Shown here one piece after another: positions 14,062-24,528 of a DNA stretch of 25,788 nucleotides. The notes beneath the pieces were generated by a model. The model saw only the letters and a program-made list of their open reading frames with translations. It did no database searches and was not told where the DNA came from. A program made the translations under genes and the position numbers. The stretch's first letter is position 1. The number at the start of each line of letters is the position of its first letter. The DNA lies in IMG/VR virus record IMGVR_UViG_3300017773_000119, positions 1-25,788 of that record, one strand, 5' to 3'. The stretch comes from a virus.

Positions 14062-15357
14062 ATGCAATCTTTTGATACACTAATCGAAAAGTGGTCTCCA
14101 GTACTGAACGAAGAGAGTGCCGGAACTATTCGAGATCATCAGCGTAAAGCTGTAACTGCTGCCGTTCTTGAGAACCAAGAAAAAGCAATGAACGAGCAAC
14201 ACCTACAAGAGTCTGGTTTCATTACTGAAACTGCGGCAAACAACACTACATCACAGTCACGATGGGATCCAGTATTGATCTCATTGGTTCGTCGTGCAAT
14301 GCCTAACTTGATGGCTTATGACGTTTGTGGTGTTCAACCTATGTCTGGTCCTACTGGTCTTATCTTCGCTATGAAGTCAAGATATAACGGTGGTTCAACT
14401 TCTAACGACGAAGCTTTCTTCGACGAAGCTAAAAATGGTTTCTCTGGCGACGGTTCAACCAAACCTACTGACACTTCTGGTTTCGCTGGTATCGATTCTG
14501 AAGGATCTCGAGTAACTGATCTTGCTGCTTCTGGAATGGAAACTACTGTTGCTGAATCACTTGGTAACACTGGTCCTGATTTCGCTGAAATGGGTTTCAC
14601 AATTGAGAAGTCAACTGTTACTGCAAAGTCACGTGCTTTGAAAGCAGAATACTCTCTTGAACTCGCTCAAGACTTGAAAGCTATCCACGGTTTGGACGCA
14701 GAAACAGAATTGGCAAACATCTTGTCAACTGAAATTCTTGCAGAAATTAACCGAGAAGTTATTCGTACAATTAACTCTCAGGCAATTACTGGCGCACAAC
14801 AATCAAACGTTGCTAAGAAAGGTATCTTTGATCTTTCTGGTGATGCTGATGGACGTTGGTCTGCTGAGAAGTTCAAAGGTCTAGTTGTACAATTAGATCG
14901 TGAAGCAAACGTAATTGCTAAGCAAACTCGTAGAGGTAAGGGTAACATCGTTATCTGTTCTTCAGACGTTGCTACTGCACTTTCTGCTTCAGGTATGTTG
15001 GACTACACTCCTGCTATGAGCACTACTCTACAGGTAGACGACACTGGTAACACTTTTGCTGGTGTTCTTAATGGTCGTACTAAGGTTTACATCGATCCAT
15101 ACGCAACTACTGATTATATCACTGTCGGTTATAAGGGTACTAACCCATATGACTCAGGTATTTTCTACTGCCCATATGTACCTCTACAGATGGTTAAAGC
15201 TGTCGGTGAGAATGATTTCCAGCCACGAATCGGATTCAAGACTCGTTATGGTATGACTTCTAACCCATTTGTTGGACCTACTCCTTCAGATAACCTAGCT
15301 GCTGCTAAAACCAATCAGTACTACAGAATCTTCCGTGTGGACAACATCCTCGCATAA
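14062..15357 (+). CDS. 23: gp23-like major capsid protein
   Basis: This 431-residue major head protein (T4 gp23 521) has a charged N-terminal region that opens MQSFDTLIEKWSPVLNEE, then GFITETAANN; cleavage by gp21 is predicted after E56 in I-T-E. The HK97-fold body has SRWDPVLISLVRRAMPNLMA (about 66-85), PMSGPTGLIFAM, and the C-terminal IGFKTRYGMTSNPF. It has an AAGGA SD. A strong terminator follows the gene, fitting the need for high expression of a defined late unit. Confidence 0.97.
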   Translation: MQSFDTLIEKWSPVLNEESAGTIRDHQRKAVTAAVLENQEKAMNEQHLQESGFITETAANNTTSQSRWDPVLISLVRRAMPNLMAYDVCGVQPMSGPTGLIFAMKSRYNGGSTSNDEAFFDEAKNGFSGDGSTKPTDTSGFAGIDSEGSRVTDLAASGMETTVAESLGNTGPDFAEMGFTIEKSTVTAKSRALKAEYSLELAQDLKAIHGLDAETELANILSTEILAEINREVIRTINSQAITGAQQSNVAKKGIFDLSGDADGRWSAEKFKGLVVQLDREANVIAKQTRRGKGNIVICSSDVATALSASGMLDYTPAMSTTLQVDDTGNTFAGVLNGRTKVYIDPYATTDYITVGYKGTNPYDSGIFYCPYVPLQMVKAVGENDFQPRIGFKTRYGMTSNPFVGPTPSDNLAAAKTNQYYRIFRVDNILA

Positions 15358-15388: not shown

Positions 15389-15396
15389 CATTTTAG

Positions 15397-15422
15397 GGGA
15401 GACTTCGGTCTCCCTTTTTTTT
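15397..15422 (+). terminator. Rho-independent terminator after gp23
   Basis: GGGAGAC and GTCTCCC form a 7-bp stem closed by a TTCG tetraloop, directly followed by eight T residues. It separates the capsid unit from the riboswitch cassette. Confidence 0.93.
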
Positions 15423-15424
15423 AT

Positions 15425-15432
15425 TATAAATA
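15425..15432 (+). promoter_or_regulatory. T4-type late promoter for the riboswitch cassette
   Basis: This exact TATAAATA lies only 2 nt after the T-run of the gp23 terminator. The expected start (about 15438) falls at the first bases of aptamer 1, so the transcript would begin with the RNA domain. Confidence 0.8.
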
Positions 15433-15438
15433 ATAGTC

Positions 15439-15496
15439 CGTTCATTTATATTTTTTTTATATAAACGGAAGTAGTCTTTAGACGAAGGAACGCATC
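15439..15496 (+). ncRNA. Glutamine-riboswitch-like aptamer 1 (Downstream-peptide/glnA class)
   Basis: This domain carries the hallmark segments of the glutamine aptamer: CGTTCAT at the 5' side, ACGGAAGTAG in the middle, and CGAAGGAACGC at the 3' side. CGTTC (15439-15443) pairs with GAACG (15488-15492) as P1; TTTATAT pairs with ATATAAA (15445-15465, T-loop); GTC pairs with GAC round TTTA (15474-15483). RNAs of this class bind L-glutamine and occur upstream of glnA or short peptide genes in cyanobacteria, their phages and marine metagenomes (recalled knowledge). The match is from memory of the consensus. Confidence 0.82.
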
Positions 15497-15498
15497 TT

Positions 15499-15549
15499 CG
15501 TTCATCTCGAAAGAGACGGAAGTAGGTGATTTTACCGAAGGAACGCATC
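15499..15549 (+). ncRNA. Glutamine-riboswitch-like aptamer 2 (tandem copy)
   Basis: This second domain, 2 nt after the first, has the same conserved segments: CGTTCATCT, ACGGAAGTAGG and CCGAAGGAACGCATC. P1 is CGTTC (15499-15503) with GAACG (15541-15545). P2 is TCTC/GAGA capped by a GAAA tetraloop (15505-15516). P3 is GGT/ACC (15525-15536). The stems differ in sequence from copy 1 but keep pairing, which is strong internal covariation evidence. It lies 12 nt upstream of the SD of the 55-codon gene. Confidence 0.87.
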
Positions 15550-15573
15550 TAACTTTTAACTAAGGAGGATGTC

Positions 15574-15741
15574 ATGACTACATACTATAGAGGTGTCAAT
15601 ATCCAAAATAAACCCACCGAGAAAGGGGCTAAACAATTGTCTGGTCTTTATCGTGGTGTGTCTTGGAAAATTGAAGATCTAAAACAGTCATTGAAGCAAC
15701 CACGAGAGCGAGTCTATCGTGGTGTAAAATGGACTGCCTAA
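15574..15741 (+). CDS. YRGV-repeat small protein controlled by tandem riboswitch
   Basis: This 55-residue protein has a perfect AAGGAGG SD 5 nt upstream of its ATG. The protein is essentially three short repeats: YYRGVNI (4-10), LYRGVSW (25-31) and VYRGVKW (47-53), joined by Lys/Gln-rich linkers. YRG motifs are the feature of small cyanobacterial DUF4278-type peptides and of the peptides found after the Downstream-peptide RNA. In cyanobacteria a glutamine riboswitch controls a glutamine synthetase inactivating factor (IF17), so a role in steering host nitrogen metabolism is conceivable, but no direct similarity to IF17 is claimed. It lies between two terminators with its own late promoter. 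Confidence 0.88.
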   Translation: MTTYYRGVNIQNKPTEKGAKQLSGLYRGVSWKIEDLKQSLKQPRERVYRGVKWTA

Positions 15742-15758
15742 TATAGACAAGAATGGAA

Positions 15759-15784
15759 GGGGTTCGAAAGAGCCCCTTTTTTTT
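15759..15784 (+). terminator. Rho-independent terminator after the YRGV gene
   Basis: GGGGTTC and GAGCCCC form a 7-bp stem (one G-U) with a GAAA tetraloop, followed by eight T residues. It closes the cassette 17 nt after the stop codon. Confidence 0.93.
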
Positions 15785-15797
15785 ATCTTATTTTTTG

Positions 15798-15805
15798 TAT
15801 AAATA
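15798..15805 (+). promoter_or_regulatory. T4-type late promoter for the gp19-like gene
   Basis: This exact TATAAATA lies 13 nt past the preceding terminator T-run and 25 nt upstream of the next ATG. It gives the tail gene its own late transcript. Confidence 0.8.
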
Positions 15806-15830: not shown

Positions 15831-16355
15831 ATGCCAGTCACAACCACTACAGGAATATTAGAAAGTACTCTAACCGATAACAAAGGTTTTTTGCAACCTA
15901 CTGGTTTTAGAATTGTTATCAATAAAGGATACTATGCAAACTTAGAATATTTTGCTCAATCAGTCATGCATCCCGGCGCAACAGTAAATGTTGTGGAACT
16001 CCCTGTCAGAAAGGTTACTTCAGTTCCTTTGGCTGGAGATAAGATAACATATTCGGAATTAGAATTAACTCTGATACTAGATGAGGGTATGTCAGGTTAT
16101 AAGGAGATGCAATCTTGGTTAGAAAGAACCATCGAAACTAATACTAGAGGAGTGCTAGAGACACCAGTATCTTCTATATATTCAGACATAACTGTTATGG
16201 TTTTGTCCAGTCAAAATAATACCTCTGTCCGTATAAAGTACAAGGACTGTATTCCTACAGCTTTGAGTGCTATAGATTTAAATGCAACCACAGGAGATGT
16301 AACATATCTGACGTTTAATGCAACGTTTAGATTTGCTCAATTTGAAATTATATAA
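15831..16355 (+). CDS. Tail tube-fold protein at the gp3 position
   Basis: This 174-residue protein resembles gp19: VVELPVRKVTSVPLAGDK (about 54-71) parallels the VPFRGRQLKIAGDR region of the tube protein, an MQSWLERTIE helix parallels LERWMNG, and IPTALSAIDLNATTGDV parallels PTNLSAIELSYDTVD before the last strand. In related marine phages the gene between gp23 and uvsY is usually labelled gp3 (tail completion). The product is thus a virion tail component: a tube initiator/terminator or baseplate-hub tube homologue (gp48/gp54 type) rather than a second bulk tube protein. It has an AGAGG SD and its own late promoter. Confidence 0.72.
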   Translation: MPVTTTTGILESTLTDNKGFLQPTGFRIVINKGYYANLEYFAQSVMHPGATVNVVELPVRKVTSVPLAGDKITYSELELTLILDEGMSGYKEMQSWLERTIETNTRGVLETPVSSIYSDITVMVLSSQNNTSVRIKYKDCIPTALSAIDLNATTGDVTYLTFNATFRFAQFEII

Positions 16356-18886: not shown

Positions 18887-19477
18887 ATGGCTAGTGAAGC
18901 ATCCAAAAGACCACATTATGTTAATAACAAACAGTTTAGTCAAGCGGTCGTAGACTATGTAACTCATCTTAGGGAATGTGAGAAGGAGGGTTTATCAAAA
19001 CCCATCGTACCTAATTACATCGCAGAATGTTTTTTAAAGATATGTGAAGGTCTATCTCATAAAGCTAACTTTGTTCGTTATACATACAGAGAGGAAATGG
19101 TTATGGATGCTGTAGAAAATTGTCTCAAAGCAATTAATAGGTTTGATCCAGAGGCCGCAACTCGTACAGGAAATCTTAATGCGTTCGCATACTTCACACA
19201 GATTTCTTGGTATGCATTCTTACGTCGCATACAAAACGAGAAACGTCAACAAGATATAAAGATGAAGTATATTTCAGAAGCTGCAATAGAAGACTTTTTA
19301 GTCAATGGAGAAAACATAGATGGTCATATTCATAATCAACCATTTGTAGATGTTCTTCGACAGAGGATTGATATTGTGAAAGATGCTGACAGTCACTTCA
19401 AAGATTACGCAAAAGAAGAAAAGAAAAGAAAGAGAAGATCGGTAAAGGTTGATTCTGATCTTTCAGATTATTTGTAA
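18887..19477 (+). CDS. 55: gp55-like late sigma factor
   Basis: This 196-residue protein (T4 gp55 185) is a minimal sigma70-family factor that directs host RNA polymerase to the TATAAATA promoters seen in this window. The region 2-like segment includes YREEMVMDAVENCLKAINRF (about 67-86) and NAFAYFTQISWYAFLRRI (about 99-116). The C-terminus ends DSDLSDYL, an acidic-hydrophobic tail of the kind that docks to the gp45 sliding clamp (inference). It has a strong early promoter of its own, no good SD, and is followed by another promoter. Confidence 0.92.
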   Translation: MASEASKRPHYVNNKQFSQAVVDYVTHLRECEKEGLSKPIVPNYIAECFLKICEGLSHKANFVRYTYREEMVMDAVENCLKAINRFDPEAATRTGNLNAFAYFTQISWYAFLRRIQNEKRQQDIKMKYISEAAIEDFLVNGENIDGHIHNQPFVDVLRQRIDIVKDADSHFKDYAKEEKKRKRRSVKVDSDLSDYL

Positions 19478-23653: not shown

Positions 23654-23729
23654 GTCCCGTTCGTCTAGTCGGTTAGGACACTAGGTTTTCATCCTAGCAA
23701 CATCGGTTCGAATCCGGTACGGGATGCCA
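23654..23729 (+). tRNA. tRNA-Glu (TTC)
   Basis: This is a complete cloverleaf with acceptor GTCCCGT/ACGGGAT (first pair G-U), anticodon stem CTAGG/CCTAG with loop TTTTCAT, so anticodon TTC, T-loop TTCGAAT, and an encoded CCA after discriminator G. It reads GAA/GAG, codons frequent in these genes. Confidence 0.93.
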
Positions 23730-23733
23730 ATTT

Positions 23734-23803
23734 GCGGAGGTCAGTTATTGAGTCAATGGGGACCACTCATTGAAGGTAGGGGAAGATCCTACACTCCGCT
23801 CCA
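23734..23803 (+). ncRNA. tRNA-Gly-like RNA with atypical loops
   Basis: This 70-nt element between two tRNAs folds as a cloverleaf: acceptor GCGGAG/CTCCGC with T discriminator and encoded CCA, a shrunken D arm (TCA/TGA, 5-nt loop), a 7-bp anticodon-like stem (23753-23759 with 23767-23773) with loop GGACCAC, and a T-like stem GTAGG/CCTAC with loop GGAAGAT. It lacks the D-loop GG, T33 and the TTC of the T-loop. The acceptor end nearly equals that of the neighbouring tRNA-Gly, and the anticodon position would be ACC (Gly). It is either a decayed tRNA-Gly or a stable tRNA-like RNA. Confidence 0.6.
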
Positions 23804-23808
23804 ATATT

Positions 23809-23884
23809 GCGGATATAGCTCAGTTGGTAGAGCGCAACCTTGCCAAGGTCGAGGTCGTCGGTTCGAGACCGACTATCCGCTCCA
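23809..23884 (+). tRNA. tRNA-Gly (GCC)
   Basis: The cloverleaf has acceptor GCGGATA/TATCCGC, D arm GCTCAGTTGGTAGAGC, anticodon loop TTGCCAA (GCC), T arm GTCGG/CCGAC with TTCGAGA, discriminator T and encoded CCA. The anticodon stem CAACC/GGTCG has one A-C mismatch where bacterial tRNA-Gly usually has G-C. Confidence 0.93.
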
Positions 23885-23887
23885 AAT

Positions 23888-23964
23888 GCGCCCGTAGCTC
23901 AGTTGGATAGAGCAACAGCCTTCTAAGCTGTGGGTCGCACGTTCGAATCGTGCCGGGCGTGCCA
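23888..23964 (+). tRNA. tRNA-Arg (TCT)
   Basis: The cloverleaf has acceptor GCGCCCG/CGGGCGT, anticodon stem ACAGC/GCTGT with loop CTTCTAA (TCT), T arm GCACG/CGTGC with TTCGAAT, discriminator G and encoded CCA. It reads AGA, the dominant Arg codon in AT-rich phage genes. Confidence 0.94.
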
Positions 23965-24117
23965 TAAGAAACCCGAAGGAACTGTCTTCCAATCCAGTTC
24001 TTTCATACACAACCTAGTTGATTGGAATACGAATCGGTTGCCCGTCGACTGATTAGGAGATTAATATTCGGATATGGTTGTCCGAGTATAGGGCGGGCCG
24101 AATTTTTGGATTTCTTA
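23965..24117 (+). ncRNA. Structured RNA candidate / lipoprotein leader
   Basis: The region directly after the tRNA-Arg CCA can form a closed multibranch structure. TAAGAAA (23965-23971) pairs with TTTCTTA (24111-24117). GAAGGAACTG (23975-23984) pairs with CAGTTCTTTC (23995-24004). CAACC/GGTTG and GATT/AATC stack (24010-24040). CCCGTC (24041-24046) pairs with GGCGGG (24092-24097). TATTCGGA (24065-24072) pairs with TCCGAGTA (24081-24088). It contains no convincing gene. It could be a small stable RNA like the non-tRNA species in the T4 tRNA cluster, or a leader that hides the downstream start codon. Confidence 0.5.
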
Positions 24118-24503
24118 TGCGACTATTTTTAATTTCACTTTTAATATTCACTGTGTCTTGTAGCACTACGCCTGTATCCAAACCTAAAGGAAAAGATGGT
24201 TATAGGTTTGAGGTTAAAGATACTGAGATGTTGACTCCTAATATAGAATTTGTTATTATAAAAAATAAAGAAGAGTACAATAAAATAAGGAAAAGGTTTT
24301 TTGGTCACCATTGGGATACCGTACAAGCCTTTACTCGTTGGAGACCAGAATCTAAAACTTGCATCATATACATAAAAGACCCTATGTGGATGTATCAACC
24401 AGAATATATAGGACATGAGGTAGCTCATTGTATTTGGGGCAACTGGCACAAAATAGAAATTAAACCTATAAATAATTACCAAGATAGACTTGAAACTGAT
24501 TGA
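24117..24503 (+). CDS. Phage lipoprotein with HExxH motif
   Basis: This is 128 residues from the ATG at 24117; an upstream in-frame TTG (24078) would spoil the signal peptide and is rejected. The start MRLFLISLLIFTVSC is a short lipoprotein signal with a lipobox-like FTVSC, so Cys15 would be the lipidated residue and the protein would sit in the host membrane. Near the C-terminus GHEVAHCIWGNWH contains HExxH followed by a third His, suggesting a zinc-dependent peptidase fold. The role could be envelope remodelling, lysis aid or superinfection exclusion; none is shown. The SD is poor, and the start codon lies at the base of the predicted upstream stem. Confidence 0.75.
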   Translation: MRLFLISLLIFTVSCSTTPVSKPKGKDGYRFEVKDTEMLTPNIEFVIIKNKEEYNKIRKRFFGHHWDTVQAFTRWRPESKTCIIYIKDPMWMYQPEYIGHEVAHCIWGNWHKIEIKPINNYQDRLETD

Positions 24504-24528
24504 CACACCTTGCGTATTGTGTTATAAT
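24500..24528 (+). promoter_or_regulatory. Consensus sigma70 (early) promoter for gp44-gp62
   Basis: TTGACA, 17 nt, TATAAT, perfect in both hexamers. It overlaps the stop codon of the lipoprotein gene and lies 32 nt before the gp44 ATG. Confidence 0.88.

Follow-up and report, generated by a model that had tools for sequence, protein, structure and literature searches.

What do two adjacent structured RNA domains directly behind the major capsid gene of a marine T4-like phage sense, and which gene do they control? A sequence-only reading of the window (the whole 25,788-nucleotide stretch analysed, IMG/VR record IMGVR_UViG_3300017773_000119) had proposed a tandem pair of glutamine-riboswitch aptamers, and cmscan, run on the full stretch with every Rfam 15 model, agrees. 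Two end-to-end matches to RF01739 (Glutamine riboswitch), each covering model positions 1-53, exceed the gathering score of 35 bits by 23-26 bits, and chance is not a serious explanation for them. The segments said to be common to both halves, CGTTCAT, ACGGAAGTAG and GAAGGAACGCATC, are present in each, and the connecting helices do differ in sequence while still pairing (TTTATAT/ATATAAA and TCTC/GAGA in P2; GTC/GAC and GGT/ACC in P3). Three sibling viral contigs contain both matches as well, with scores of 58-61 bits. P2 and P3 carry double changes among viral leaders, while P1 is nearly invariant, in part because our search patterns fixed its 3' strand. A related aptamer, RF01704 (Downstream-peptide, Glutamine-II), is known from cyanobacteria and marine samples, where it precedes short ORFs (PMC2864571), but this model had no match within the window in the same search, or in two sibling contigs tested. 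From family membership we infer that the ligand is glutamine. Because both halves belong to the same one-ligand class, the further suggestion of a "two-input" response finds no support; a sharper response from the pair is plausible, in line with the pseudo-cooperative view of tandem glutamine riboswitches, of which 157 doublets and 4 triplets have been reported (PMC9481103). Those likewise place two complete aptamers of the same class in series, but here there is one ORF and one Shine-Dalgarno sequence (SD), which the tails of both aptamers can target.

The aptamers are part of a self-contained unit consisting of the gp23 terminator, a late promoter, the two aptamers, an SD, a 55-aa ORF and a closing terminator (Table 1). 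The earlier reading had named the correct aptamer class and missed the regulated gene, the expression platform and the flanking terminators. Its placement of the pair directly 3' of the major capsid gene is confirmed by Pfam and Rfam matches, and its view that the phage would read host glutamine late in infection is supported, as to the timing, by a consensus T4 late promoter, TATAAATA, and a gp55-type sigma gene in the window, which fits the use of such promoters; together, at the level of sequence, promoter and phage-encoded sigma factor make this a T4-type late transcription unit. The octamer occurs 10 times in the window against 2.65 expected, and the copy before the module ends 6 nt ahead of the first P1 strand. 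By analogy with T4 late promoters, transcription is predicted to start at about 15438, the first aptamer nucleotide, and since P1 begins at 15439 the RNA would begin at the aptamer. Elsewhere the window holds three tRNA genes (Glu(TTC), Gly(GCC) and Arg(TCT), 23654-23964) and a 141-aa ORF (24078-24506) with a lipoprotein-like start, an HEVAH motif suggestive of a zinc peptidase, and only one weak PHROG match, to a family of unknown function.

Table 1. Features of the late unit and its surroundings; positions are those of the window.
Feature	Position	Strand	Basis
gp23 major capsid protein, upstream gene	14062-15357	+	Pfam Gp23 E 2e-143; phrog_138
Intrinsic terminator after gp23, parting the module from the capsid transcript	15395-15416	+	terminator scan
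T4-type late promoter TATAAATA	15425-15432	+	exact match
Glutamine aptamer 1	15437-15496	+	RF01739 58.0 bits, E 1.3e-10
Aptamer 1 P1 helix	15439-15443/15488-15492	+	folding
Tail 1 (inter-aptamer linker), CAUCUUC	15493-15499	+	sequence; folding with tail 2 open; tandem relatives
Glutamine aptamer 2	15497-15549	+	RF01739 60.9 bits, E 2.2e-11
Aptamer 2 P1 helix	15499-15503/15541-15545	+	folding
Tail 2, CAUCU, 5' strand of the SD-sequestering stem	15546-15550	+	MFE fold; covariation, 102 leaders
Shine-Dalgarno AAGGAGG	15562-15568	+	sequence
GGAUG, 3' strand of the sequestering stem	15567-15571	+	sequence; covariation
55-aa DUF4278 ORF, ATG at 15574	15574-15741	+	Pfam PF14105; viral homologues; pN/pS
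Intrinsic terminator closing the module	15755-15780	+	terminator scan
Next late promoter TATAAATA, ahead of the tail-tube-like gene	15798-15805	+	exact match
Tail-tube-like gene	15831-16355	+	phrog_45 tail tube
gp55-type late sigma factor gene	18887-19477	+	phrog_234 E 8e-51

How could the aptamers act on the ORF? The terminator scan places terminators before the promoter and after the ORF but leaves the stretch from aptamer to ORF empty, which makes control by termination unlikely. The tail that follows P1 of the last aptamer, here aptamer 2, can instead pair with the spacer between SD and AUG. In a MAFFT alignment of 102 leaders (128 minus 26, the dropped ones including visibly different platforms), 99.7% of the pairs in this helix are standard: pair 1 is C-G in 102/102; pair 2 is A-U in 101 and G-U in 1; pair 3 is C-G in 61, U-A in 29 and A-U in 6 (standard in 99/102); and pair 4 is C-G in 51 and U-A in 24 (standard in 100/102). 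Our search patterns fixed the first tail nucleotide, and kinship among the sequences inflates such counts, but the exchanges occur in several peptide groups. Covariation over the whole structure scores 0.318; slid versions reach 0.079 at the most, and shuffles 0.115. The window leader itself folds only moderately better than its shuffles (z -2.76). Because the tail nucleotides covary with the SD-AUG spacer, control is probably translational, and sequence and folding together give the platform of a translational riboswitch: a sequestered SD with no terminator between aptamer and ORF. In the full set of 128 leaders, the tail forms 4 bp or more starting from its first nucleotide in 115, and 13 are without the stem; at the SD most of these exceptions have GUAAAGGAG, preceded in several cases by a CUUUAC/GUAAAG stem. 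A contig that carries psbA (L088) and three others (L100, L103, L115) have similar single-aptamer leaders before YRG-type peptides, with a different platform in which GUAAAG immediately precedes the SD.

We consider it likely that this late unit of a T4-like phage uses a tandem type-1 glutamine riboswitch to control translation of a 55-aa DUF4278 micropeptide; most likely, the two-aptamer late RNA decides whether the 55-residue protein is made. Starting at the late promoter, the RNA would carry the aptamers at its 5' end. Without glutamine, tail 2 would pair with GGAUG and hide the SD, and tail 1 could pair at the same place, so that the SD would be doubly locked, since both tails can cover one site. 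Glutamine would stabilise P1 of each aptamer and pull back its tail, such that the peptide would be made when glutamine is high. As both tails would need to be withdrawn, we infer that the response is steeper than with one. The ON polarity is suggested by cyanobacterial experimental precedent, where both characterised glutamine riboswitch types raise expression upon glutamine binding (PMC6316151), and this phage's host may not be cyanobacterial.

In simple folding, however, the sequestering stem persists when both aptamers are forced to form, so any release must come from tertiary effects outside such folding. Two other readings draw on this result. One might suppose that the aptamers do not switch at all and that the leader is a structured 5' end protecting, or weakly repressing, a small late mRNA, as folding gives no release of the SD once the aptamers form. 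We regard this as highly improbable: each aptamer gives a high-scoring match to the complete model, covariation is seen in P2, P3 and the sequestering stem when viral leaders are compared, and the sibling contigs examined retain two full copies. It is also conceivable, if distinctly unlikely, that polarity is reversed, with glutamine favouring the sequestering stem and the peptide made only at low glutamine; tail 2 does still pair with the SD spacer in the model with both aptamers formed, and tandem aptamers in marine alphaproteobacteria precede genes for AmtB and glutamine synthetase (GS), where repression by glutamine would make sense. But the published polarity of the riboswitch-DUF4278 pair is activation (PMC6316151), and the bacterial loci have another downstream arrangement (CATGC/GCATG). 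True tandem aptamers were found in only four bacterial loci, other matches in genome contigs being mostly chance owing to too short a pattern. All four are alphaproteobacterial, one of them labelled SAR116; the ORFs downstream, named by reading their sequences, are AmtB-like in two cases, GS-like in one and of another kind in the last. There, tail 1 CATGC matches GCATG 3' of aptamer 2, a hint that the tail may serve as an output strand. A 2018 review described these riboswitches as restricted to cyanobacteria, with which the alphaproteobacterial loci contrast.

The preferred reading, in which glutamine releases the SD, gives tail 1 a direct part in the lock. Tail 1 is complementary to GAGGAUG (15565-15571) over the SD across 7 bp, including one G-U, and in folding with tail 2 kept open, tail 1 takes its place at the SD. 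This complementarity is common to scorable tandem loci with a CATCTT linker, and to this linker class only. A pseudo-cooperative pair would have one expression platform per aptamer; that of aptamer 2, the tail 2 stem, is strongly supported, and tail 1 may provide the other in this class. In other linker classes tail 1 matches the P3 5' strand and the loop of aptamer 2 over 6-7 bp (CAUUAUC, CAUUGUU and UAUUAUC with GGUAAUG, GGCAAUG and GGUAAUA), and in the CCGAA class it has neither pairing. We suggest that the first arrangement could be a double lock and the second a relay. Could the window, too, be a serial relay, in which tail 1 acts on aptamer 2 and not on the SD, so that aptamer 1 gates aptamer 2? 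A match of at least 6 bp is present in 15/34 locus types, compared with 6.8% for P3 regions of single aptamers, and the covariation between tail 1 and aptamer 2 is no more than suggestive; once near-identical types are collapsed, though, 988/20000 shuffles reach the observed value, which is weak support. Within the linker class of the window, only 4 bp (CAUC/GGUG) link tail 1 to aptamer 2, against 6-7 bp to the SD region, and the CCGAA class does without either pairing, so we think a relay very unlikely here. An inter-aptamer hairpin seen in the window fold (CGAAG/CUUCG) was set aside, as it requires the linker CUUCG, which other linker classes do not have.

The next question is what the peptide does. 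The ORF encodes MTTYYRGVNIQNKPTEKGAKQLSGLYRGVSWKIEDLKQSLKQPRERVYRGVKWTA (MTTYYRGVNIQ...VYRGVKWTA), with three YRG motifs, and matches Pfam DUF4278 (PF14105) at 32.5 bits against a cut-off of 25.3 (E 1.1e-7, profile positions 1-56 of 57). This was its sole Pfam match; NCBIfam gave none, tblastn in annotated phages and PDB sequence searches found nothing significant, and weak matches to PHROGs 5049 and 545 lead to families of unknown function. The peptide is 71-100% identical in related contigs, with pN/pS of 0.22-0.49 against siblings, and its AlphaFold model (pTM 0.27) has short strands paired around the YRG motifs. DUF4278 occurs in 48/146 sampled genomes from the phylum of a Calothrix genome and in 1/14 control genomes, that one being Synechococcus elongatus. 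The domain is the N-terminal part of the cyanobacterial GS-inactivating factor IF17, and it is mostly to DUF4278 genes that glutamine riboswitches are linked in cyanobacteria (PMC6316151). Given the domain match and this published link between DUF4278, IF17 and a glutamine riboswitch at its gene, the peptide could be an IF17-like factor with which the phage shuts down host GS when glutamine is plentiful, a proposal that concerns the target only and is compatible with the translational riboswitch. We find this unlikely. The ORF stops with DUF4278 and has no C-terminal IF7-like inhibitory part, and the portion of IF17 that it spans is reported to be disposable for function (PMC6316151); peptides of other phage cassettes have no DUF4278 match; and the host may not be a cyanobacterium. 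A search for psbA, as a pointer to the host, found it in one YRG contig only (L088); the sibling contigs and Phage C48C1 do not have it. C48C1 has the nearest gp23 (72%), followed by Melnitz (62%) and HTVC008M and S-BM3 (both 59%). More broadly, we would guess, with considerable doubt, that the peptide tunes nitrogen metabolism in the host while virions are being made, for example by acting on GS.

The module is not alone. Pattern scans of viral contigs with regular-expression parsing gave at least 170 distinct viral riboswitch units, 86 single and 84 tandem, and a scan specific for tandem pairs gave 117 stretches in all; at least 160 other viral DNA fragments carry similar cassettes of glutamine sensor and tiny protein, often in the same spot. 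A short ORF lies 3' of 164 units, and all 158 complete target ORFs have at most 78 residues (median 49), as called from starts within 70 nt of the aptamer, which could favour short ORFs, with no upper length limit. The peptides are mostly basic; in the larger groups the median net charge is about +5 to +9. Clustered by blastp, they fall into several unrelated families: YRG/DUF4278 with a linked MTKY group, WC, RFxHL, DPRLQ and smaller ones. Among ten representative peptides, Pfam recognised YRG members only. In tblastn searches of annotated phages with three other cassette peptides, only the RFxHL family gave matches, to Pelagibacter podophages; one of these, HTVC019P (NC_020483.1, 38842-38967), encodes an RFxHL relative without an RF01739 match. 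The 60 nt upstream contain the late-promoter motif NTAAATA in 84/84 tandem and 48/84 single units; as a background, TAAATA occurs in 11.5% of the 60-nt stretches that precede ORFs of 100 aa or more.

Where enough upstream sequence was available, a major capsid gene is the immediate upstream neighbour of 64/163 units, at a distance of no more than 150 nt in 51 cases, and these 64 carry at least five peptide groups. The capsid gene is gp23 (phrog_138) in 57 cases and an unrelated head protein (phrog_267) in 7. The patterns that found the loci contain no reference to a capsid gene, and seven loci came via a peptide query. No cassette was found behind gp23 in Melnitz, Mosig, HTVC008M or the near relative C48C1; a blast match of the module to C48C1 among annotated phages covers the terminator-promoter piece only, with no riboswitch. 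It is tempting to propose, though we think it less likely than not, that marine phages with different hosts and capsid types share a capsid-adjacent slot in which glutamine gates the translation of small basic peptides, that unrelated families have been swapped into one riboswitch-controlled cassette and manipulate host nitrogen metabolism while virions are made, and that one subset works as a relay, with aptamer 1 controlling aptamer 2.

Several elements of this arrangement have been described separately. The type 1 glutamine riboswitch of cyanobacterial gifB/DUF4278 genes (Klahn 2018, in PMC6316151) has the same aptamer class in a 5' leader before a DUF4278 target, and control of protein synthesis is presumed there as for the phage module; here, by contrast, the element is phage-borne, with two aptamers and a T4 late promoter, and the target consists of DUF4278 alone, carries three YRG motifs and lacks the IF7-like part. 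Melnitz and Mosig also encode RF01739 riboswitches (PMC9004378), which we find to precede short ORFs as well, but unlike those of the window these are single aptamers with other peptide families and do not lie behind gp23. The Melnitz element has been tied to ssrA and the late coactivator (PMC9004378); in MZ577097.1 the riboswitch (46398-46446) is followed 26 nt on by an unannotated 32-aa ORF of the WC type with its own SD, MTLYQQWCYLKAQKEYRRRQKILMYFRIRLKG, which points to this ORF as the likelier target. In Mosig the riboswitch is followed by Mosig_00116, a DPRLQ-type protein of 51 aa. Synechococcus phage S-BM3 (OQ319121.1, 41956-42005) has a sub-threshold aptamer (24.9 bits as RF01739, 28.3 bits as RF01704) before a phrog_545 YRG protein.

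Glutamine riboswitches in phages, tandem glutamine riboswitches and the pairing of riboswitch and DUF4278 are thus each known already; what looks new is their combination, how widely it is spread, and its expression platform. In the literature covered, largely without subscription journals and preprints, we found no account of the late-promoter cassette, of the sequestering stem that the units share, of their micropeptide targets or of the slot beside the capsid gene. Our survey conflicts with a published scan that reported no riboswitches in pelagimyophages or cyanophages (PMC7029224). Where the targets of phage glutamine riboswitches have been unclear, the module supplies both a target gene and an expression platform, and it marks several micropeptide families as candidate small effectors of nitrogen metabolism. 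Whether marine lytic phages sense the glutamine level of their host late in infection, and what use their peptides make of it, now becomes a testable question.
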